From Phycisphaerae bacterium (GTDB lineage Bacteria > Planctomycetota > Phycisphaerae > Phycisphaerales > SM1A02): a stretch of 58,686 nt of DNA. Below are positions 35,844 to 55,105 of the stretch, one piece after another. The position numbers and the translations under genes were made by a program. The DNA is taken from the NCBI GenBank assembly GCA_002722935.1, contig PBMX01000033.1, positions 1 to 58,686 of the forward strand, in the 5' to 3' direction. The notes below the pieces were generated by a model, which was not told where the DNA came from, made no database searches, and saw only the letters and a list, made by a program, of their open reading frames with translations. Each line of letters starts with the position of its first letter. Position 1 is the first letter of the stretch.

Positions 35844-36419
35844 TCATCCCGTTATTCGACGCACCGACAACCTGCCGGTCATCGGCGTGACGAGCACTTC
35901 CCACTGTTCATCCTGGCTCTCGATGACGATCCTTCCTGAACCGGCCGCGATCCCGGGCGCCACAACCGTGCTGCCCATCGCATCGAAGGTGATCCAGTTC
36001 CCTGAGCCATCCGTCTGGACCGCTCCGACCTGCACCGTGTCGTACCGGTCGTCGGCCATGTAGTCGACGAGATACCTGCCATGTGTTCCGAAGGTCCCGG
36101 CGGGGTCTTCCACGTAGGTTGCCGTCGATTCATCGAAGGTTGCATCGAAGTCGGCTTCATCTACGACGAGCAGGCAGTACCCGCGTCCATCATCGAGAAA
36201 CTGTACTCGTCGGTATTCCTGGTTCGAAATGGCCTCGGATTGCGCGAAGTGGATGTCGGCCATGAGACGACGGACTGCCGACTGGGTCTCCATGGTCGTG
36301 AGTCCGACCAGGTTCGGAATGAGCAGCACGGCGGATAGACCGAGCACGCCTACTGCGAGCACCAGTTCAACCAGGGTGTAGGCGAAGCGCCTGCCGTGAT
36401 CTCGACGATTCCGACTCAC
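35844..36419 (-). CDS. Pseudopilin (GspH-like) with Ala at the cleavage site
   Basis: A 191-residue prepilin-like protein. RRFAYTLVELVLAVGVLGL is a class III signal: short basic leader, then YTLVE with the conserved Glu at +5 and a hydrophobic helix. The residue before the cleavage point is Ala, not the usual Gly. The rest is a beta-rich domain resembling GspH/FimT. It overlaps the next gene upstream by 4 bp and lies 19 bp before pilM, so it is probably a minor, priming pseudopilin. The peptidase that would process it is not in the window. Confidence 0.82.
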   Translation of the reverse strand: MSRNRRDHGRRFAYTLVELVLAVGVLGLSAVLLIPNLVGLTTMETQSAVRRLMADIHFAQSEAISNQEYRRVQFLDDGRGYCLLVVDEADFDATFDESTATYVEDPAGTFGTHGRYLVDYMADDRYDTVQVGAVQTDGSGNWITFDAMGSTVVAPGIAAGSGRIVIESQDEQWEVLVTPMTGRLSVRRITG

Positions 36420-36766
36420 CTGGATCCCTCCCGAGGCCTGGACGTGCCCGTGTCCTCCGCGGAATCCGCCTGCACCCTGACCTGGATGGTCCCGGTGTCG
36501 AGGCTTGCCGCGATCGCATCGACTCCTGCACGAAGACGTGCAAGGGATGCGATGAGCTCATCACGCTGCTGAATCGATCGTTCGCCGATGCTTGAGACGC
36601 CGTCGGCATCCTCGGCCGGCGTGCGGGCCGTACCTGCAGGCTTGCTTCGAACCTGGGCGGATGCACTGCTCGTCATCGGCTCGTTGGATACCTGCCCCCA
36701 TGCAATGATGCCAAGGAGAATGGCGATTGCCGCCAGCAGGCTGTCATGTCGTGTTTCTTGTTTCAC
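36416..36766 (-). CDS. Small membrane protein between the pseudopilin genes, unknown
   Basis: A 116-residue bitopic protein. It has one N-terminal helix (SLLAAIAILLGIIAWGQV), a Ser/Ala-rich linker and a short coiled coil (RSIQQRDELIASLARLRAGV). It lacks the Glu-5 and leader of a pilin. The start is GTG 36766, chosen because GGAG lies 9 nt upstream and the helix begins at once; the frame is open to 36943 but that part runs through a terminator. I do not recognise a family. Its stop overlaps the GspH-like start, so it is probably a filament-specific accessory protein. Confidence 0.6.
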   Translation of the reverse strand: MKQETRHDSLLAAIAILLGIIAWGQVSNEPMTSSASAQVRSKPAGTARTPAEDADGVSSIGERSIQQRDELIASLARLRAGVDAIAASLDTGTIQVRVQADSAEDTGTSRPREGSR

Positions 36767-36887
36767 ATTCGTGCTCCAAGGTGTGCCCCGCTGTCCATCG
36801 ACCCGATCAGGTGGCCTCCTCAGTTCGATCCGGCAGACGACAAGGAATCCCCGGATTCGACGTCCTATAAGAAGCGTGTTCAAGAGT

Positions 36888-36923
36888 TGAAAAAGAGAGA
36901 CGCCGGCCCTTCCGACCGGCGTC
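36888..36923 (-). terminator. Hairpin with T tract after the major pilin gene
   Basis: On the minus strand GACGCCGG pairs with CCGGCGTC (36916-36923 and 36899-36906) around a 9-nt loop and is followed by TCTCTTTTT. It lies 67 bp after the pilin stop. It would let the pilin be made in excess over the genes behind it. Confidence 0.75.
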
Positions 36924-36990
36924 CCCACGTGCGCCCTGATCATGGTCGTCCTCCCTGCTCCAGAGAGCCCGAACGACCACGAGCTACGCT

Positions 36991-44022: not shown

Positions 44023-46233
44023 CTAGTCATCGGACTCTTCAGACGTGTAGGACGCCATGAGTTCGTAGTTCTTCTTGAAGTAGCCGCCCGCGGTACGCCT
44101 TGGGCGATTCAGGACGACGCCGAGCAGTTCGCATCGAGCGGCGTTGAACTGGTTGATCAGTCGCGAGACGAGCCCCCGTTCCTCGCGATTGGCCTGGATG
44201 ACCATGCACGTCGCATCGACGCGGTCGGCGAGAACCAACGCGTCGCCGGCCGCGATGGCGGGAGCCGTATCGATGATGACGAGGCCGAATGAACCACGAA
44301 GCGTGGCCATGAACTCGTCGAAGGATCTATCGGCGAAACGATCGTAGACCCGGTTGCCCGGTGTTCCTGCCGAAACGACGGAGATTCCGGAACCCTCCAC
44401 CTGCTGCACGACGTCAAGAGCGCCCGCGGCACCGTTCAACACGTCCCCCAGGCCGGGCGAGTCGTCATCGATGTCATAGACCGATGCGAGACACGGGCGA
44501 CGGAAATTGGCATCGACGACGGCAACGGAGATGCCCGAGCCCGATGCTGAATCCGCGAGGTTCGAAACCACGGTCGTCGCACCGGAGCCGGGCATGCCGC
44601 TGGTGACGAGCAGTGATGAGAAACCCTTCTGCTGCAGGGTCCGGCTCAGCGCGGTCCAGGCCTGACGATAGGACTCGGCGATGATGCTCTGTGGTTCCTG
44701 TGAAACGGCACGCTCTGCGTCCTCGATGTCCGTTGGATCCTCGTCGACTTCCGGAATCGTACCAATGATGGTTGCGCCGGAGATGATCGCCAGATCGCCC
44801 GCTCCACGGATCTTCTGGTTCATGATCTCCCTGAGGAAGATGATGCCGATGAAGCAGCCCAGGGTGAGCACGACGCCCGCCGGGATGATGATCTCCGGAC
44901 GCGGGAACGAGAGTTCGCGAGGCGTGAGGGCGAAGTTCACCAGTCGGACACGACCTGCATCCGCACGCAGCTTCATCAACTTGATGCTGTTGAGGAGTTG
45001 CAGATCGTCATTCCGCTGCCCCTCCAACTGCGTCCGCTGCTCGACCATCGAGTCGTAGATCGATGAAGAGGATGCCAGATCCCTGAGCATCGTGTCCTTG
45101 GCCTCGATCTCGGATTCGAGGCTCTCGATGACATCCTGCAACTGGGTACGCTGATCCCCGAGCGTCTTGAGCTTCGCATTCAGGTTCCTGCGAATGACTT
45201 CCTCTCTCTTCGATTCGATCTGGAGTTCCGTCGCCCGGACCTGTCGCTCGATGGTCCTCACCTGGGGCGTATTCGGGTTGAACTGCTCCTTGACGGATCG
45301 CTCCTCGGCCTTGAGAGCCTGGAGCGTCTGCAACTGCCGCTGCATCGTGACGTCGTACTCGGCCTCGAGGATGTCCTCGTGCGTCGGCTCGATGGTTCCC
45401 TCGAGTTTCGCGGCCGTCTGCATGTACTGTGTCTGGATGCTCGTCAGTTCCGAGGCCGCCGTGGTGACCGCCTCCGTCAGTTTCTGGCTTTCAAAGGCGG
45501 CCTGGGAATAGCGAGGATCATCGAGGGTCGTGATGCCGTGCGTCAGGATGAATCCCTGTATCTCCTCGTTGAGATCACCGAGGGCCAGTCGGGTACCACG
45601 CAACTGGTCCTGGAAGAGCGCCTCGTTCTCACTGAACTGCTCGTTGTCGAGGCGCTCGATCTTGCGCAGGTACGCCTGGGCAATGGCATTGAGCACGATC
45701 GGAACATCCTGCGCATTGTGCCATGACCACCTCACTGAGAACAGGTTCGTGTTCCGGATGACGGGCGTCGAGAGCGTCTCGATGAGATCATCGACCGCCT
45801 GGGCTTCAAGCGGAGTGCCGGTCTCAGGATCGATGAACCACTCCTGCATCCAGCCCGTGTCGCGTACCCCGGGGTTGGCAACAGCATCACTGAGAACATC
45901 ACGTCCCTTCATCAACAGAGCCTGCGTGTTTGCGACCCTGGAAACATCCTTTTCACTCATGGACTCGCTGGTCCCGATATCCGTCGATTCGACGAGTCCG
46001 GGTCTCACTTCGAACATGACCTCGGTTGAATAGAGCGGGTAGAGGTATCGAAGCGAGAAGAATGCACCAACCCCGATGATCCCACCAAGAAAGATCGAGA
46101 CACAGATTCCAAGCACGTGCTGGCGGAGCACCCGGATCGGATCGATCGTAGGCCCTCCCTTGCCCTGAGCACGCTGGGACGGAGATCTCTGGGGTCCCTT
46201 GGATCCTGATTGTCGGCCCGTCTGGCTACTCAT
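44023..46233 (-). CDS. wzc: Wzc-like chain-length protein with a degenerate tyrosine-kinase domain
   Basis: A 736-residue inner-membrane protein. A Wzz-type region with helices near 40-62 and 447-468 encloses a long coiled-coil periplasmic part (about 200-425). The cytoplasmic domain looks like a BY-kinase but key motifs are lost: Walker A reads GMPGSGATT (546-554) with Ala 552 (GCG at 44578-44580) for the essential Lys, A' reads VVDANFRRP with Asn for Asp, and the ExxRxxR helix reads ESYRQAW. Walker B (LVIIDTAP) and three C-terminal Tyr (718, 723, 729) remain. It probably controls polymer length without kinase activity. Confidence 0.88.
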   Translation of the reverse strand: MSSQTGRQSGSKGPQRSPSQRAQGKGGPTIDPIRVLRQHVLGICVSIFLGGIIGVGAFFSLRYLYPLYSTEVMFEVRPGLVESTDIGTSESMSEKDVSRVANTQALLMKGRDVLSDAVANPGVRDTGWMQEWFIDPETGTPLEAQAVDDLIETLSTPVIRNTNLFSVRWSWHNAQDVPIVLNAIAQAYLRKIERLDNEQFSENEALFQDQLRGTRLALGDLNEEIQGFILTHGITTLDDPRYSQAAFESQKLTEAVTTAASELTSIQTQYMQTAAKLEGTIEPTHEDILEAEYDVTMQRQLQTLQALKAEERSVKEQFNPNTPQVRTIERQVRATELQIESKREEVIRRNLNAKLKTLGDQRTQLQDVIESLESEIEAKDTMLRDLASSSSIYDSMVEQRTQLEGQRNDDLQLLNSIKLMKLRADAGRVRLVNFALTPRELSFPRPEIIIPAGVVLTLGCFIGIIFLREIMNQKIRGAGDLAIISGATIIGTIPEVDEDPTDIEDAERAVSQEPQSIIAESYRQAWTALSRTLQQKGFSSLLVTSGMPGSGATTVVSNLADSASGSGISVAVVDANFRRPCLASVYDIDDDSPGLGDVLNGAAGALDVVQQVEGSGISVVSAGTPGNRVYDRFADRSFDEFMATLRGSFGLVIIDTAPAIAAGDALVLADRVDATCMVIQANREERGLVSRLINQFNAARCELLGVVLNRPRRTAGGYFKKNYELMASYTSEESDD

Positions 46234-46274: not shown

Positions 46275-49034
46275 TCAACCCCTGCCTATATCGTCCTGAA
46301 GTCGCTCTATCTCCGATCGGGTTCCATCATCCGGCGATAAATCAAGTGCCTTCTGAAGATGATCCCTGGCCTTGTCGCGACGCCCCTGGTCTATAAACAC
46401 CTGCGCCATATGCAGATGCGCCCTTGGAGTCGGGCCTTTCTTGATAGACGATCGAATATGCTCCTCGCCCTTTGAATGCTTGCCAGTCCGGTAATAGGCC
46501 CAGCCGAGGGTATCGAGCACATCGGGATCGACCGGCATGATCTGCAACGCACGTTCAGCGAAGGCCACGCCCATCTCCGGATCGCCGAGGTGATCGAAGT
46601 AGGCATTGCTGATGGACAGGATGACGCCGACATTTTCGGGCTCGAGTTCATGTTGCTTGAGCCGACTCACCATGGCCTTCTCATGGTTCCCGATGGAAGC
46701 GTTGATCGTCGCGATGGTGTCGAGAATCGCGACGGAATTCGGGCTCAATGCTGCCGCTTTTTCCGCGTAAGGAAGAGCTTCCGTCGGCTGGGCCAGGTCC
46801 GTCGCGAGAATATACGCATAGTTGTTGAGTGCACCGGGATCCTCTGGATTGAGATCGACGATCGTCTTGAAGGATTCCGCGGCTTGTTCAGAATCGCCAT
46901 GCGCAACCTGGTAACTGCCGAGCATCAGCACCAGTCCCGGGTACACATCGGGCTCTTCCGTGCGTGAGCGTTCCACTGCTGTCTGCTGGAGATCGATGGC
47001 CCGTGCCAGTCCGGATTCTCCGAAGAGACCCCAGTAGGTCGACATGCCGACGATATCCCAGAACTCGTCGGTGTCCTCCGTGATCGACGCCGCCAGTTCA
47101 GCCCCTTCTTCCGGATCACGATTCGCATAGACCGCAAACAGGTCCTCGTACCAATCCCTGATGGACATCCGCGAGAGATTGCCCAGTTCGATTTCCTTCC
47201 TGTAGATCGGGTATGCCCTGCGAAGTTGTCCGTCCGCACGGTCGTACGACCCCTTCCCTCCCAACGCCCTTGCATAGAGTCCCATGAGTTTCGGATCGCG
47301 GGACGTCTGCATCGTGGCGCTGAACAGTTCGATCAAGGCGTCGTAATCCCAAGGATCACCCGTACGCGTCACGCTCCGCAACTTGAGCATGATGGATCGA
47401 CGCGGTTCCATGGAATAGGCATTGAGATACGCCATCGTCGAGTTGACGAGGCTTGGCTCCGGAAGCGCCTGGTAGAAATCACCGAGGGCTTCGTACCATT
47501 GACCCTCGTCGGGATAGAGCGAAATCGCCTCCTTGATCAGGTCTTCCGCCTTCTCGCTCTGGCCTGACTTGAGGTATGCGATCGTGAGCCTGTTGCGCAG
47601 CTCATCCGAACCAGCGTGCTTCCTGAGCACCGACTCCAGTTTTTCGACGGCCTCGTTGATTCTTCCCTGGGACTGGAGGATCTCGGATTGCTTGACGATG
47701 AGCGTATCCGACTCGGGCATGAGACGAATGCCGGAGTCGGCGATGAATGCCGCCTGCTCGAGCACCTCCTGATTGCGCGTCCTGGAGTATTCGGCAAGCA
47801 TGCTGTCGATCAGTTCGATGTATGGACGCACCTGGGACGGATCCACCTCTCTGGCTTCCGCGAGCCAACGACGATAATCCTCCATGGCTGCATCGGCTAC
47901 CGACCGGTCCCCCTTGGACTCCGCCACGGCGGACAGTTCGTATGCCATCATCGCCTGGAGCATCAAGGAGTCGTACGTAGGCGCCTGATCACCGATGTAC
48001 TTCTTCAACTCCGATTCAGCCTGTTCGAAGCGTCGAAGCTTGAGCATGGCCCGGATGAGGCTTGCATGGAGTTCCGGCGAGTCCGTCGCCTCGTATCCCG
48101 ACTGGATGTACGGCAGGGCTCTCCTGTAATCACCGGCTGTAACGAACAACTGACCGAGCGCTATGTCGATCGGCCGTGTCGAGGCCGTCTGCTTCGGAAC
48201 GGCGCTCAGAAGCAGTTCCCCCGCTTCCCTGGCTCGATCGATCTGCAGCAGCAGGTTCGCGACTGATATGACCATCGGGACATAGTTCGGATCATTCTCG
48301 TTCTCTTCGATGAAGCGTCGAAGAACCTGAACGGAATCGTTGCGCCTGTCCAACTTGCCATAGACCTCTGCAAGCAGCAGGGCCTGGCCGAGGGACAGGC
48401 CTCCTGCATCGGCGAGTTCCTCGAAGATGACCGTGTACATGTCGACCCATTGACTCTGCAGGGTCTCGATCGCCCGCTCCTGTGCCTTTATGGACATCCC
48501 CCCCCACTCGCGCTCGGAGTACTGCTCCTCCCCGTATTGATTCAGCATGAGCTCCCGAGCCGGCTTGAGACTGACCAGCATCTCGGCGAGTCTCAACTTG
48601 TTCAGGATGTTCGAAGGATCCAACCTGTGCGTGGATGCCCGCATCCACAGGGCTGTTTTCTGACTGCCCGTTTCATACTCGGCCTTCAGCCACTCTTCTC
48701 GAATGTAGGCATCGTTGGGCAGCAGATCCTTGGCGTTCTGGAGCACTCTCAACGTCGTGAGCGGGTCATCGCCGGCATTCACGAGGCTGCTTGCATACAG
48801 GCGCGCCGTACGGGTGCTGTTTGGATTCCTCCTGTACGCTTCCGAGAACGCTTCGATCGCATCTTCGGACTTCCCTCCTTCGTCAAGCGCGACACCCAGT
48901 GATATCCACGCATTGTCGGACCAGGGGCTGACATCGATGGCTCTCCGAGATGCGAGCAGGGCCGATTGAAGATGCTCTGCATGAAGCCCGTCATTCCCCG
49001 CAGCTTTTTCCGCAACGGCTTTCCTCAGGTGCAT
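46275..49034 (-). CDS. TPR-repeat protein, downstream part of an interrupted frame
   Basis: At least 919 residues made almost wholly of TPR repeats, for example AWISLGVALDEGGKSEDAIE and PDVLDTLGWAYYRTGKHSKG near the end. There is no signal peptide or membrane helix. The ATG at 49034 has no ribosome binding site, and the same frame is open for 26 coding-like codons further up to the TGA that ends the preceding TPR gene. It is therefore likely the C-terminal part of one large protein. TPR proteins accompany exosortase/EPS loci, where they scaffold synthesis or export; that role is inferred from position. Confidence 0.75.
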   Translation of the reverse strand: MHLRKAVAEKAAGNDGLHAEHLQSALLASRRAIDVSPWSDNAWISLGVALDEGGKSEDAIEAFSEAYRRNPNSTRTARLYASSLVNAGDDPLTTLRVLQNAKDLLPNDAYIREEWLKAEYETGSQKTALWMRASTHRLDPSNILNKLRLAEMLVSLKPARELMLNQYGEEQYSEREWGGMSIKAQERAIETLQSQWVDMYTVIFEELADAGGLSLGQALLLAEVYGKLDRRNDSVQVLRRFIEENENDPNYVPMVISVANLLLQIDRAREAGELLLSAVPKQTASTRPIDIALGQLFVTAGDYRRALPYIQSGYEATDSPELHASLIRAMLKLRRFEQAESELKKYIGDQAPTYDSLMLQAMMAYELSAVAESKGDRSVADAAMEDYRRWLAEAREVDPSQVRPYIELIDSMLAEYSRTRNQEVLEQAAFIADSGIRLMPESDTLIVKQSEILQSQGRINEAVEKLESVLRKHAGSDELRNRLTIAYLKSGQSEKAEDLIKEAISLYPDEGQWYEALGDFYQALPEPSLVNSTMAYLNAYSMEPRRSIMLKLRSVTRTGDPWDYDALIELFSATMQTSRDPKLMGLYARALGGKGSYDRADGQLRRAYPIYRKEIELGNLSRMSIRDWYEDLFAVYANRDPEEGAELAASITEDTDEFWDIVGMSTYWGLFGESGLARAIDLQQTAVERSRTEEPDVYPGLVLMLGSYQVAHGDSEQAAESFKTIVDLNPEDPGALNNYAYILATDLAQPTEALPYAEKAAALSPNSVAILDTIATINASIGNHEKAMVSRLKQHELEPENVGVILSISNAYFDHLGDPEMGVAFAERALQIMPVDPDVLDTLGWAYYRTGKHSKGEEHIRSSIKKGPTPRAHLHMAQVFIDQGRRDKARDHLQKALDLSPDDGTRSEIERLQDDIGRG

Positions 49035-49112
49035 TCTCGAACGGAATATGTCGCCGCCGCTGGAGTCGATGTTCCGAGCAGCGCCGAAATCAACCAGTTC
49101 CTCGAGGGTCTT

Positions 49113-51407
49113 TCAGTCCTCCGCTTCGGACGCCCGTTCGAACTGGATCGAAAACAGGCCGGCGTTCTCGGACGGGGCAGATGTCAGGATGGTGGGTTCA
49201 AGGCTCTGCATCTCGAGTTCGGCTCTCGAGGCGATATCCCTGGCCTCCGCCGAGGCTTTCAACTGGCCTGAAATCTCGAGTTCATCCGCGATCTGGTTCT
49301 GCTGCGCAGCCAGCGCATTGAATGCAATGAACAGATTTTCCCGGGCTTCCCTGGAATCCGGATCGTCGCTGATACCCAGTGCCTCTTCCCGTACCAGTTC
49401 GAGAATATCCGACGCAGCGACTCTTCGACGAATCTGCTCAATCCGCTCATTCCCGGGTTCGATCACGAGCGCATCGTCCAGCAACTGCACGGCAACGTCG
49501 ACATTGCCACGACTGGATTCGACCTGGGCCATGGAAATCAGCAGGCGAACATCGACGGGATCCATCGTAGCTGCGACATCACGAAGAAGTTGGATCGCCC
49601 GGTCGGGATTGGCGGCCTTCATTTCATTGTCCGCCTGGCCGATGACTCTCAGAACCGGATCGGAAATGCCTTCGAAGCCCGTGTTGTTCTCCGTTCGCTT
49701 GAGCAGTTCCAGCGAGGCCATGACTTCCTGAACCGCCTCGTTGTTCCGCTGGATTCCCGCGGGGAGTGATTCAAGGGTCCGGATGCCTTCATCGATCCTT
49801 CTCAGGCGACCTTCCATGCTCGCTTTCGCGAGGTAATGATCGAGCTGCATCGGTTCCGCCTCGACGGCGGCGGCAAGACGTTCGAGCGCAAGTCCCTGCT
49901 GCCCGATCCGCTCGAGGCATATCGCCGCATTCCGATAGACCATCGCTGATGGATCGTTCGCGATGAATATGAGACGCTCGAAGGCGTTTGCTGCCTCGCG
50001 ATAGTTCCCCTGGCCCATCTCGATGCGCGCATCGGCGTTCAACGCGACCACGTTGTCCTTGTCTCCACTCATCAGGTCATCCAGGCCCCCTCGTCTTTCG
50101 ATCATGGCGTCGAAGTACGCGTCCTTGTCGGACTCGTCGGCTTCAGCCCACAAGGCATGCGCAATCTCGAAATCCAGGCTTGCTGCCGTCAACCTGTAGT
50201 CGTACTGCTCGAGTGATTCGAGACTGATCGGCTTCTGATCGGCCCCGAGTACCTCCGAAACCGCCTCGCTTGCGGCGTCGTAGTTCTTCATGGCGTAGTA
50301 GAGGTCAGCCAGCGCGAGGCGGAACCGGAGGTCCTCCGGTTCGTCTGCGAGGTACGCATTGAGCAGAGCCACGGCACGATCCTGGCCATTCTCGAAATCG
50401 ACGCGCCTGAAGTACATCAGCAGTTCCTGAACCTTGATCGGCATCGATCCCGGGTCGACGAGGATGATCGACTCGACGTGATCGAGGGACGCCTGGAGCC
50501 GTGCTTCAAGTGCATCGATCTCATCCTGGGAAATGCGCGTACGGTCATTCTGTATTTCACCGTTCTGGACGATCTTCTGGAGATAGAGGTCGCGAAGCAC
50601 CATCAAACTGGTGGCGGGACCATCCGGATTCTTCGCGACGGCCTCCTTGTAGGTCGTGTTGGCATGCTGGAGGTTCTTGGCCTCCTGACCGACACGCCCT
50701 TCCAGACCGAGCCGACGTGCCACTGCAAGTCGACCGAACGCCAGGTATGCCCAGCCCTCGTCGCTTCCCGGAACCAGCTCTATATGCTCGATGAGATCCT
50801 CCTCACCCGGGAAGTAGATCCGACCGTCGATCCGAAGATCGTCTGTCATTTCCGCATCCCTGAGGCGGAGCGTCGAGAGTCCCTTGTACAACATCGCCTC
50901 CGCGTAGAGATCGGACGTATTCGGGAATCGTCGTTCGATCTCGGTGCAGATCTGCAGGATCTGCCTGGGATACTCCTCCCGGTCAGTGATGCGTGCAGCG
51001 ATGTACATTTCATCGATCAGCGACGCATAGTTTTCCTCGGAAGCCGGCAGGTTCTTTGCTCGCGACATCATCACGGCATTCCGTTCATTGAACAGTTCCC
51101 TCGCCTCGACCTGTGACACGGGGACGATGTGGTCGTAGGTCTTCAGCAGGTTGTCGTAGACGACGACGTTGTCCGGCTGCCTGTAGAGCACCCTGCCGAA
51201 GTACTTCTTCGCCAGCCTGTAGTCGCCTTCCTTCATCGCCTCGAGGCCCGAGTTGATGTTGCGTGTCGCCCGCCACGATCCCTGGTAATACAGGGCTCCT
51301 CCACCGATCACGCCGATCCCGCCCACGACGAGAGCGATGATCAGGAGAAGTTTCATGTTCAGCTTCTGCTTCTTCTTCTTTTTCTTTTTCTTTTTCTTCT
51401 TGGCCAT
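49113..51407 (-). CDS. Membrane-anchored TPR protein, upstream part of an interrupted frame
   Basis: A 764-residue protein. It starts with eleven consecutive lysines (residues 3-13), then one membrane helix (LLLIIALVVGGIGVIGGGAL), then TPR repeats outside the cytoplasm beginning about residue 50 (GLEAMKEGDYRLAKKYFGRV). The N-in basic start is an extreme form of the positive-inside rule. The ORF ends SEAED then TGA, and the frame runs on into the next TPR gene. It lies 16 bp after the exosortase gene. In exosortase loci such TPR proteins are usual companions; a scaffold role in exopolysaccharide export is inferred. Confidence 0.82.
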   Translation of the reverse strand: MAKKKKKKKKKKKQKLNMKLLLIIALVVGGIGVIGGGALYYQGSWRATRNINSGLEAMKEGDYRLAKKYFGRVLYRQPDNVVVYDNLLKTYDHIVPVSQVEARELFNERNAVMMSRAKNLPASEENYASLIDEMYIAARITDREEYPRQILQICTEIERRFPNTSDLYAEAMLYKGLSTLRLRDAEMTDDLRIDGRIYFPGEEDLIEHIELVPGSDEGWAYLAFGRLAVARRLGLEGRVGQEAKNLQHANTTYKEAVAKNPDGPATSLMVLRDLYLQKIVQNGEIQNDRTRISQDEIDALEARLQASLDHVESIILVDPGSMPIKVQELLMYFRRVDFENGQDRAVALLNAYLADEPEDLRFRLALADLYYAMKNYDAASEAVSEVLGADQKPISLESLEQYDYRLTAASLDFEIAHALWAEADESDKDAYFDAMIERRGGLDDLMSGDKDNVVALNADARIEMGQGNYREAANAFERLIFIANDPSAMVYRNAAICLERIGQQGLALERLAAAVEAEPMQLDHYLAKASMEGRLRRIDEGIRTLESLPAGIQRNNEAVQEVMASLELLKRTENNTGFEGISDPVLRVIGQADNEMKAANPDRAIQLLRDVAATMDPVDVRLLISMAQVESSRGNVDVAVQLLDDALVIEPGNERIEQIRRRVAASDILELVREEALGISDDPDSREARENLFIAFNALAAQQNQIADELEISGQLKASAEARDIASRAELEMQSLEPTILTSAPSENAGLFSIQFERASEAED
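51369..51401 (-). repeat. Low-complexity AAG/AAA lysine tract
   Basis: Eleven consecutive Lys codons (mixed AAG and AAA), residues 3-13 of the TPR protein. The A-rich run could cause ribosome or polymerase slippage and could vary in length between strains. Confidence 0.9.
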
Positions 51408-51423: not shown

Positions 51424-53202
51424 TCAGGTGTCGGCTGGATTGTTCAACTCGCCGTTCTGGACATCGGCCCAGTCAGGCAGGCACAACATGATTTCACCGA
51501 GAAATACGTTCATGGAATCACTCATGACCTCGATGAAGTCCTCAACATCGAACTCGGGGCCTCCCTTGAGCATGAACTGCAACTTGCAGTAGTAGGCGTA
51601 CTTCTCATTTGGATTGAAGGCCAGCATCCGGACGCCCCCGGGAGTGGGCGTCAAACGCCCGTTCGCAATGAAGAAGTACCCTGCAAAGATACGCTCTTCG
51701 GGGCGGGCTGGATCGAGGAATTCCGACGTACGGACCACGATGTCCCCGACAGGCATCCTGACCTCGTGAAGCCCCCTGGCAGTAGCCAGTTGGAATGGCA
51801 CCCCGTCGATCTCGTGGATTGGATCCTCCGTCCACCCTGCCCGATCGATCTCCAGGTCGTAATGCGTCGGTTCCGGGGATCTCTCGACGAGTCCGCCTGC
51901 AACAAGGCATCGATCAGGGACATGAGGCACGACATCGATCTGCCCGGTGTAGTAGGCGACGTGGAGATTGAGCACCGGCCAGTCGGGCTCGGCGGTGTTC
52001 CTGTAGATCCTGGATATGTAGTACTGGGTGCCCAGTTCCTCCGCGGCGGCCTCCGGCATCCTGTACTCCTGGAGCATCTTCCAGCTGCCGATCGTCGTTT
52101 CGACGTTGGCCAGCGAACTCCTGAGCTTGACCGGGTGTTTCTGGAGGTAGACGTTCAACTGCGAGGCGAGGAGTTGGAAAAGCACACCTCCCGCCACCAT
52201 CACGAGACAGGCCACGACGAACGCCTTCCGTGCCCCGCGTGAAAACCGGATCGACAGCGTGTCGACCTTCGAACCACCCGTTGAACCCGGTTCCGCTTCC
52301 GGTTCGTCATCCGAGACCACGAGATGCCTGAGGATCCACATGACTCCCAGGTAGATGAAGAACGCGGGGATCAACCACAGCATCCCGACCATGGAGTGGA
52401 AGTCGCCCGCGGCGAAGTTCGAGTCCACGGTCGCCAGGACGCCGAGCGTCATGACCCTCAGCACGTTGACGAAGATGGCCGTCGGCACGGCGAAGGCGAC
52501 CAGGAGGCATCGCTGCCACGCATGATCGAGGCCCCTGTAGGCCATGGCGACACCGAGCGCGAGGAAGGCGACCACCATGCGCATTCCTGAACATGCTTCG
52601 GCGATGTTGACAGGAATGACTTCGCCGTCGAGGAAGATCCGAAGCGTGTTGCCGGACTTTGTCATGTCGTAGCCGAGCAACGTCAGGCCCCAGTATGAAC
52701 CATGCGCAGCGATGTCCTGGAGGCGGAACGTCACGATCTGCAGGAATCGATCCGAGATCGTCTGGCTGAACAGGATCATGTAGAGGAGGGGGAACCAAAG
52801 CCATTTCATCGATCGCCAGCCGAAGAGGAAGAGCGTGAGACCGATGAGCGACAGGCCGAATCCAGCGCCCATGAGGTTGTGATGCTTCAGGACCTGGGGT
52901 CCCAGTGCGCAGAACGAATACCAGGACATGCCTGCGACAAGAAGAAACAGGCCCGTCCAGGATGAACGGAACGGTTCCCGCGTGAGTTCCTCCCGGTTCA
53001 GCCAGACGAAGTACCCCGAGATGAATGGAATGACGAGGGTATGGCCCCAGTCAGCCTGCTGGTTGACCGCGAAGAGAACCTGTCGTTGGAGGAAATCCCA
53101 GAAGAGCCAGGTGATGATGACCAGGAGAAACCCGCCCATCAAGAGAAGTGAACGCTCGGAAAGCGTCTCTCTTGATTCCAGCGAGGTCTCCGATACCGTC
53201 AT
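51424..53202 (-). CDS. Exosortase fused to an EpsI domain
   Basis: A 592-residue polytopic protein. The N-terminal half (about 15-295) is an exosortase/archaeosortase with the catalytic triad Cys 204 (IAEACSGMRM), Arg 249 (FVNVLRV) and His 269 (DFHSMVGML). After another helix (about 330) comes an EpsI-type domain (about 350-575) with VAYYTGQIDVVPHVPDRCLV. Exosortases cut PEP-CTERM-like tails and join the protein to a lipid or glycan, and are typically linked to exopolysaccharide loci, as here. No PEP-CTERM protein is encoded in the window. GGGGAGAGGAG precedes the ATG. Confidence 0.93.
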   Translation of the reverse strand: MTVSETSLESRETLSERSLLLMGGFLLVIITWLFWDFLQRQVLFAVNQQADWGHTLVIPFISGYFVWLNREELTREPFRSSWTGLFLLVAGMSWYSFCALGPQVLKHHNLMGAGFGLSLIGLTLFLFGWRSMKWLWFPLLYMILFSQTISDRFLQIVTFRLQDIAAHGSYWGLTLLGYDMTKSGNTLRIFLDGEVIPVNIAEACSGMRMVVAFLALGVAMAYRGLDHAWQRCLLVAFAVPTAIFVNVLRVMTLGVLATVDSNFAAGDFHSMVGMLWLIPAFFIYLGVMWILRHLVVSDDEPEAEPGSTGGSKVDTLSIRFSRGARKAFVVACLVMVAGGVLFQLLASQLNVYLQKHPVKLRSSLANVETTIGSWKMLQEYRMPEAAAEELGTQYYISRIYRNTAEPDWPVLNLHVAYYTGQIDVVPHVPDRCLVAGGLVERSPEPTHYDLEIDRAGWTEDPIHEIDGVPFQLATARGLHEVRMPVGDIVVRTSEFLDPARPEERIFAGYFFIANGRLTPTPGGVRMLAFNPNEKYAYYCKLQFMLKGGPEFDVEDFIEVMSDSMNVFLGEIMLCLPDWADVQNGELNNPADT

Positions 53203-53295: not shown

Positions 53296-54852
53296 CTATT
53301 GGGGCCGAACACTGATCGGCGGCGCGCCGAAGACATCATTCCCGAAGTTCCTGTCCAGCAGGAACCCGAACCCGTAGTTCATGCGAAGTCCGTTCCTGAA
53401 GACCGCAAGCGGATAGGCCAGCCAGTTCGTGCCGACGTGCACATGGTCGTTGGGCTTCAGGTAGAAATCCGGCTTCGTCCGACGCCTGATGGCGGCGAGA
53501 TTCATTCGAACCGTGGCCTCGCGGTGTTCACCGACCATCCTCGTCAGATCGACCCGATCGGGAATCGCGAGCGAGCCGAGACCACCTGCGGCGGCGATCA
53601 GGCGACTGAGGGTCAACGGATCCGTCGTGGGCAGGTTGTAGACGCCCGGTCGAAGAACCTCACCGGAGATGTAGACCACGCCGACGGGGGGACCGTCGAT
53701 GTAGATCTGGTCATCGGGGCGAACGATGATGTTGTAGCTGTTGTCACCATGGGTCAGTGACCTGTACGGAATCTTGATGACCCGTTCAAGCACGAGGTTT
53801 GACGGTGAGGCGGGATGCTCGCTGCCACGCTTGACCTCGGACTCGATCGCGGAGTTTACCTCCGACTGCTCGACGCGAACCCACTCATCGCGTTCCGGTA
53901 CATAGATGAATGCGTTCTCGTGGGACACCTCCGGCACATCCGACTGCAGGTCGTCGATGTCCACGGGACTCGGCGTCCGGACCGAAGGCACATCGAGATC
54001 ATCGACGTCCACGAGCGGGGCGTCATCCATGCTGTATGCACCCGGGCTGGGCTTGGATTTGGCATTTTCAAGCTGGTCGATCAACGACTCGATGTTGGGT
54101 GCCGACGTGTCGACCGGGCTGGTCGTCGAATGCTCCGACCCGGCTCCATCGTTCTCCCAGTGGCCGCGCAGATCATCGGATGTGTAGACCTGGCGAACGA
54201 CGTAGACCCACTTCGTGCTCAGCGGAACCGCGCCTGTCATCGACAACGCTTCCAGGAGCCGGAGGCTCGGATCATTCAGCGTGAATCGGCCGGGCGTGGC
54301 GAGATGGCCATAGATGGTGTAGGTGAATGCACTACCCGTGTTGATGGTGACATGAACCGTCGGGTGCTGCATGACATCGGCACGCAGCCTGTCCTCGATC
54401 GCGACCTGCAGTTCCTCGGCCGTACGCCCTGCAACGAGCACTTCCCCGAACTTCGGGAACCTGATGTATCCACCGGCATCGACTCGGCGCGTAATCGGGT
54501 ACCACTGGCCCTTCATGTAGAGCTCGTAGATCTCGATCGTCAGTTCATCACCGGGATGGATCCTGTAGGTGAGATTGCTTGGAACCAGATCTTCGGGCGT
54601 GACACCGGTCGTCTGACCCCACAGGTCGAGACTCGGCTCGATCACGTCGATCCGCTCCAGAACGGGCATGGTGGTCGGGGTCTGCATGAACCGACCTGTA
54701 CGGGATGGGTCGAAGTACGAGTTGACCTCGCATCCCAGGCTCGGCAGAAGCATGAGAACAGCCAGCAGGAAAGTCCTGCCCCGCCCCCAGCATGCAGATT
54801 GCCCTGGTTCTCTCCGCACTCCATGTCTCCAGATAGCGTGTACGGATTTCAT
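53296..54852 (-). CDS. wza: Polysaccharide export lipoprotein (Wza/OPX family)
   Basis: A 518-residue outer-membrane export protein. The N-terminus has a signal and lipobox (LAVLMLLPSLGCEVNSY). YRIHPGDELTIEIYEL, TRRVDAGGYIRFPKFGEVLV and GRTAEELQVAIEDRL form the PES domain; SLRLLEALSMTGAV and GDNSYNIIVRPDDQIYI with VYISGEVLRPGVYNLP are SLBB repeats. A low-complexity acidic insert (about 265-345) separates the repeats and is unusual. ATG 54852 places the signal near the start; the open frame upstream runs through the intergenic region. It would form the export channel for the polymer made by this locus. Confidence 0.9.
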   Translation of the reverse strand: MKSVHAIWRHGVRREPGQSACWGRGRTFLLAVLMLLPSLGCEVNSYFDPSRTGRFMQTPTTMPVLERIDVIEPSLDLWGQTTGVTPEDLVPSNLTYRIHPGDELTIEIYELYMKGQWYPITRRVDAGGYIRFPKFGEVLVAGRTAEELQVAIEDRLRADVMQHPTVHVTINTGSAFTYTIYGHLATPGRFTLNDPSLRLLEALSMTGAVPLSTKWVYVVRQVYTSDDLRGHWENDGAGSEHSTTSPVDTSAPNIESLIDQLENAKSKPSPGAYSMDDAPLVDVDDLDVPSVRTPSPVDIDDLQSDVPEVSHENAFIYVPERDEWVRVEQSEVNSAIESEVKRGSEHPASPSNLVLERVIKIPYRSLTHGDNSYNIIVRPDDQIYIDGPPVGVVYISGEVLRPGVYNLPTTDPLTLSRLIAAAGGLGSLAIPDRVDLTRMVGEHREATVRMNLAAIRRRTKPDFYLKPNDHVHVGTNWLAYPLAVFRNGLRMNYGFGFLLDRNFGNDVFGAPPISVRPQ

Positions 54853-55099
54853 GACGGACGTGTTCGCGTTCAAGACCCTGAAAAACAACTTGTGTTGGCC
54901 CGAGCACCCCGGCACGACAACATCGGTGCCTGACACAGCCACCGTAGAGCCTGACATCGACTTGATGAGGCCCCTTGGTTGAGCCAGAGGCCCTCCAAGG
55001 TGGGTTTCCAGTCCGTTATCAGACTCTGGAGGCACCATTTCTGCGCCCCTGAACTCACCACGGTGGACTGGAAAGACCGCTGCAACCACCCCATGGGAG

Positions 55100-55105
55100 T
55101 ACAAT
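55100..55105 (+). promoter_or_regulatory. Candidate -10 box for leaderless lipA
   Basis: TACAAT on the plus strand, 7 nt before the ATG at 55113. The 260 bp between wza and lipA hold no gene that I can support. Confidence 0.45.

Follow-up and report, generated by a model that had tools for sequence, protein, structure and literature searches.

A giant TPR gene beside exosortase and exopolysaccharide genes of a Phycisphaerae bacterium is very probably interrupted by a stray TGA codon

The nearest curated family is that of PrsT, the TPR protein of XrtA/PEP-CTERM systems (TIGR02917), which is found beside exosortase and exopolysaccharide genes. PrsT has been described as a lipoprotein (PMC1569441), and floc formation in Aquincola tertiaricarbonis requires the prsT gene (PMC9850573). 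The gene studied here resembles prsT in its surroundings but is interrupted by a stop codon, for which the leakiness of stop codons is also relevant background. Of the stop codons of E. coli, TGA is the leakiest, and when it leaks it is mostly read as Trp (PMC11126739). Our literature search turned up no papers on either stop codons in MAGs or exosortase TPR proteins in Phycisphaerae.

The window, by which we mean the whole stretch of 58,686 nucleotides that was analysed, is contig C33 of the MAG G000 (1.4 Mb in 46 contigs, 65% complete). At 46275..51407 on the minus strand it holds a giant TPR gene, 1,710 codons long, which is a single gene in relatives and is interrupted here. The gene sits between an exosortase-family gene that adjoins it (51424..53202, minus strand; TIGR02602 at 119 bits against a cutoff of 105.55) and a gene for a Wzc-like polysaccharide chain-length/tyrosine autokinase (44023..46233, minus strand), for which TIGR01007 gives 93.9 bits, below the cutoff of 108.05 and thus a family-level similarity. 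A polysaccharide export protein-like gene is near (53296..55104, minus strand; TIGR03028 and TIGR03027, both below cutoff). As with PrsT, a TPR protein is therefore encoded beside exosortase and exopolysaccharide genes, and TIGR02917 is the best curated match of both halves of the gene, although the scores of the halves scanned separately (52.9 and 173.7 bits) miss the cutoff of 312.2. The window protein is also much longer, with about 1,710 residues against about 900 for PrsT, and its N-terminus has a Lys-rich start and a hydrophobic segment but no lipobox cysteine, so that it lacks a lipoprotein signal. The product is best explained as a giant membrane-anchored protein, to judge from its sequence, belonging to an exosortase/exopolysaccharide gene cluster of this Phycisphaerales planctomycete. 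By analogy it would scaffold the export or sorting of exopolysaccharide-associated proteins.

The preliminary description of this DNA had reported two TPR ORFs in the same frame of the minus strand that are parted solely by the TGA at 49113..49115, and this was borne out when the ORFs were re-read. As called, the ORFs span 49113-51407 (764 aa plus the TGA) and 46275-49034 (919 aa). Starting from the ATG at 51407, the frame runs for 764 codons to the TGA and is then open until the terminal TGA at 46275-46277. The N-terminal half (49116..51407, minus strand, 764 aa) contains a Lys-rich stretch, an N-terminal hydrophobic segment and TPR repeats. The C-terminal half (46278..49112, minus strand, 945 aa) contains TPR repeats, is conserved and is without further lesion. 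As had been noted before, only the upstream part has the membrane signal; its absence downstream follows from that part being the latter half of a single protein. The stretch of 26 codons behind the TGA had been described as open and rich in GC3, which is correct, with 18 of the 26 (69%) ending in G or C. As evidence this is weak, since the GC3 of the two halves of the gene is much the same (73% and 71%). Strong evidence that these codons are coding comes instead from their homology to the congener G001. At the very start of the protein (51330-51407, minus strand) 11 lysines in a row stand ahead of the hydrophobic segment, and a Lys-rich N-terminus is common to several relatives.

Comparison with related genomes, which had been proposed as a check, finds the orthologues to be single uninterrupted genes. 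Both available congeners carry the gene in one open frame, 1,727 codons long in one and 1,728 in the other, at identities of 68-72% and 47-50%. A wider survey, which used the intact congener protein as the query against 181 family genomes, found the gene in 135 of them. In 117 of the 134 other carriers the match falls within one frame that stays open for 1,500 codons or more; the remaining 17 are shorter, and in the subset of these that was checked several begin at contig ends. G000 alone among the 135 carriers has an internal stop in the gene, and a search across the family genomes found no homologue encoded as a pair of genes, each with a start of its own. In two genomes, G204 and G116, flags for one TGA had suggested a recurrent stop; in both the flagged stop lies outside the ORF, and their frames of 1,604 and 1,580 codons are uninterrupted. 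Among the 17 shorter cases, the gene of G030 (L251, contig C154, 2482-7346) is in frames of 445 and 1,283 codons with an apparent frameshift at a different place.

The alignment shows what the stop has replaced. In 52 aligned relatives, each with one frame open over 1,574-1,892 codons, the column of the TGA holds Phe in 23, Trp in 13, Tyr in 5 and other residues in 11, and is thus aromatic in 41 of 52. It is Trp, encoded by TGG, in G001, G002 and G008, and Phe or Tyr in more distant relatives. The TGA is one base away from the TGG of the nearest relatives. The earlier proposal of one protein with a change from Trp to a stop therefore stands, given the uninterrupted gene of the congeners and of most of the family and the Trp or other aromatic residue at the site.

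The state of the downstream half tells us something about the age of the stop. No further stop or frameshift was found in its 945 codons, and there is only one gap column against each congener. Under neutrality, a stretch of this length with no stop limits the time since loss to at most about 0.03 substitutions per site; the synonymous distance between G000 and G001 is near saturation. With G002 as the outgroup, the lineage-specific changes of G000 and G001 number 50 and 42 in the N-terminal half and 66 and 67 in the C-terminal half. The downstream half shows no decay. The lack of decay and the equal changes in the two lineages mean that the stop is very recent, leaky or not real.

It is also useful to ask how often such stops occur elsewhere in these drafts. 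A scan for same-frame ORF pairs that did not use a reference overlooked the present gene and for the most part picked up antisense shadows; a comparison with G001 took its place. This survey set 823 kb of the G000 MAG against 890 kb of G001, of which 268 kb was homologous, or about one third of the sampled G000. Within the 268 kb there is one further clear lone stop in G000, a TAG in a Tricorn-protease-like gene (L281, contig C39, 1178-1180, minus strand), where about 1,030 conserved codons precede the stop and 239 follow. This gene is 78% identical to the intact gene of the congener and otherwise collinear with it. In the reverse comparison, over 271 kb, two otherwise intact genes of G001 each have a clear lone TAG: an SNF2-type helicase gene (89% identity) and a Gfo/Idh-type oxidoreductase gene (88%); the sites are L094 at 10772 and L083 at 3685, both on the minus strand. 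The other flagged stops, judged by inspection, fall upstream of the start codon, in frames of low identity or in antisense frames. In the drafts of G000 and of its nearest relative, G001, the background thus amounts, independently, to some two lone stops in every 270 kb, and this figure from two related MAGs gives a rough yardstick, per 270 kb of comparable sequence, for other findings of split genes. As a side observation, the congener matches two different minus-strand frames at 36416-36983 of the window (36852-36983 and 36419-36769), which could mean a frameshift or a small gene upstream; the downstream gene there probably starts at a GTG ahead of a hydrophobic segment.

We are confident that the locus holds a single TPR gene interrupted by a stray, unprogrammed change of TGG to TGA, either as a consensus or assembly error or as a recent nonsense allele. 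The correct annotation is one interrupted TPR gene and not two genes. Between the two sources of the stop the chances are about equal, with a slight lean toward error. The coverage of G001 is apparently 5.5, which makes consensus errors plausible in that genome. Against all of the stops being errors, two of them within 268 kb would imply an error rate in the consensus of about 2e-4 per base. This figure, which is derived from the stop-creating fraction, is high for well-covered short-read assemblies. If the stop is real, the product would be an anchored protein cut short at 764 residues, accompanied by a small amount of full-length protein through misreading of UGA as Trp. Since TGA is leaky in E. 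coli and mostly gives Trp, such a low level of full-length protein is to be expected from a true nonsense allele, and no programmed signal is needed for it. The truncation, if real, would probably weaken the scaffold function.

The preliminary description had also raised the possibility that read-through of the TGA is functional and acts as a length switch, so that the scaffold is made both in a short, anchored form and in a long one. The downstream half is without relaxation, as such a switch would have it, and the residue that leakage of TGA nearly always inserts in E. coli is the Trp of the congeners (PMC11126739). However, conservation of the stop at the same site in related genomes, by which functional read-through would be recognized, is not seen, as the stop is absent from every other of the 135 gene copies. 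Its position is also a poor one for a switch. In an AlphaFold2 model of a 500-residue central fragment of the congener's protein (mean pLDDT 86) helical hairpins follow one another without a break, and the Trp of the site, residue 251 of the fragment, opens the second helix of one hairpin. This Trp is the usual aromatic residue of TPR motifs. Because it is placed inside a TPR hairpin, at its turn, the stop in this model cuts a repeat and does not fall at a domain border. Additionally, the RNA after the stop has no notable structure (z -1.24), and equivalent lone TAG stops are present in unrelated genes of G000 and G001. With a stop that no other copy shares, that interrupts a helical repeat and that has lone TAGs for company elsewhere, functional read-through is very unlikely to explain the locus and a programmed length switch in the TPR gene is unlikely. 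The narrower version, in which the TGA is real, fixed in the species and read as Trp often enough to supply both short and long scaffold forms, is a little less probable again; if it were true, it would mean a lineage-specific length switch in exopolysaccharide/exosortase assembly. The earlier interpretation is thus supported in part, for the single gene with a Trp-to-stop change, and is not supported for the functional switch.

That the locus holds two separate genes, the second beginning at the ATG at 49032..49034 on the minus strand, is highly improbable. This ATG does exist and both parts are long ORFs, but all close relatives have a single gene and the start is not conserved, the ATG being an internal Met. 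Among the nearest relatives its column holds Phe, Tyr or Leu; across all 52 that were aligned, Leu stands there in 27, Tyr in 7, Ala in 6 and Met in only 2, with others besides. The 26 codons between the TGA and the ATG are conserved coding sequence, and neither a Shine-Dalgarno-like match nor a sigma-70-like promoter was found at or near 49034. The ATG had earlier been said to have no ribosome binding site, and it has no Shine-Dalgarno-like 3-mer; this though is a weak argument, since the start of the TPR gene at 51407 has only GGA as such a match and other starts in the window are weak too. Re-initiation at 49034 after a recent nonsense mutation is possible as a secondary effect.

Recoding of TGA, as Trp throughout the genome or as selenocysteine at this site, has almost no chance of being right: the TGA does stand at a Trp position, but of 262 long ORFs in the sampled genome 218 end in TGA, which is therefore the standard stop, the TPR gene itself terminates with TGA, and relatives show Trp, Phe or Tyr, not Cys, at the site. 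The best match of the tRNA-Sec model, considered as a candidate tRNA-Sec, is a tRNA-Ser with the anticodon TGA.

The value of these results is mainly corrective, in that the split of the gene should not be taken as regulation. A single TPR gene with a stray stop closely resembles the lone nonsense codons of draft genomes and the segregating nonsense alleles that make an individual pseudogene, with which it shares one premature stop, a conserved and otherwise intact gene and intact relatives. We observed no difference from these, and comparable cases occur in G000 and in its congener. The stray stop in this TPR gene is an ordinary kind of event.
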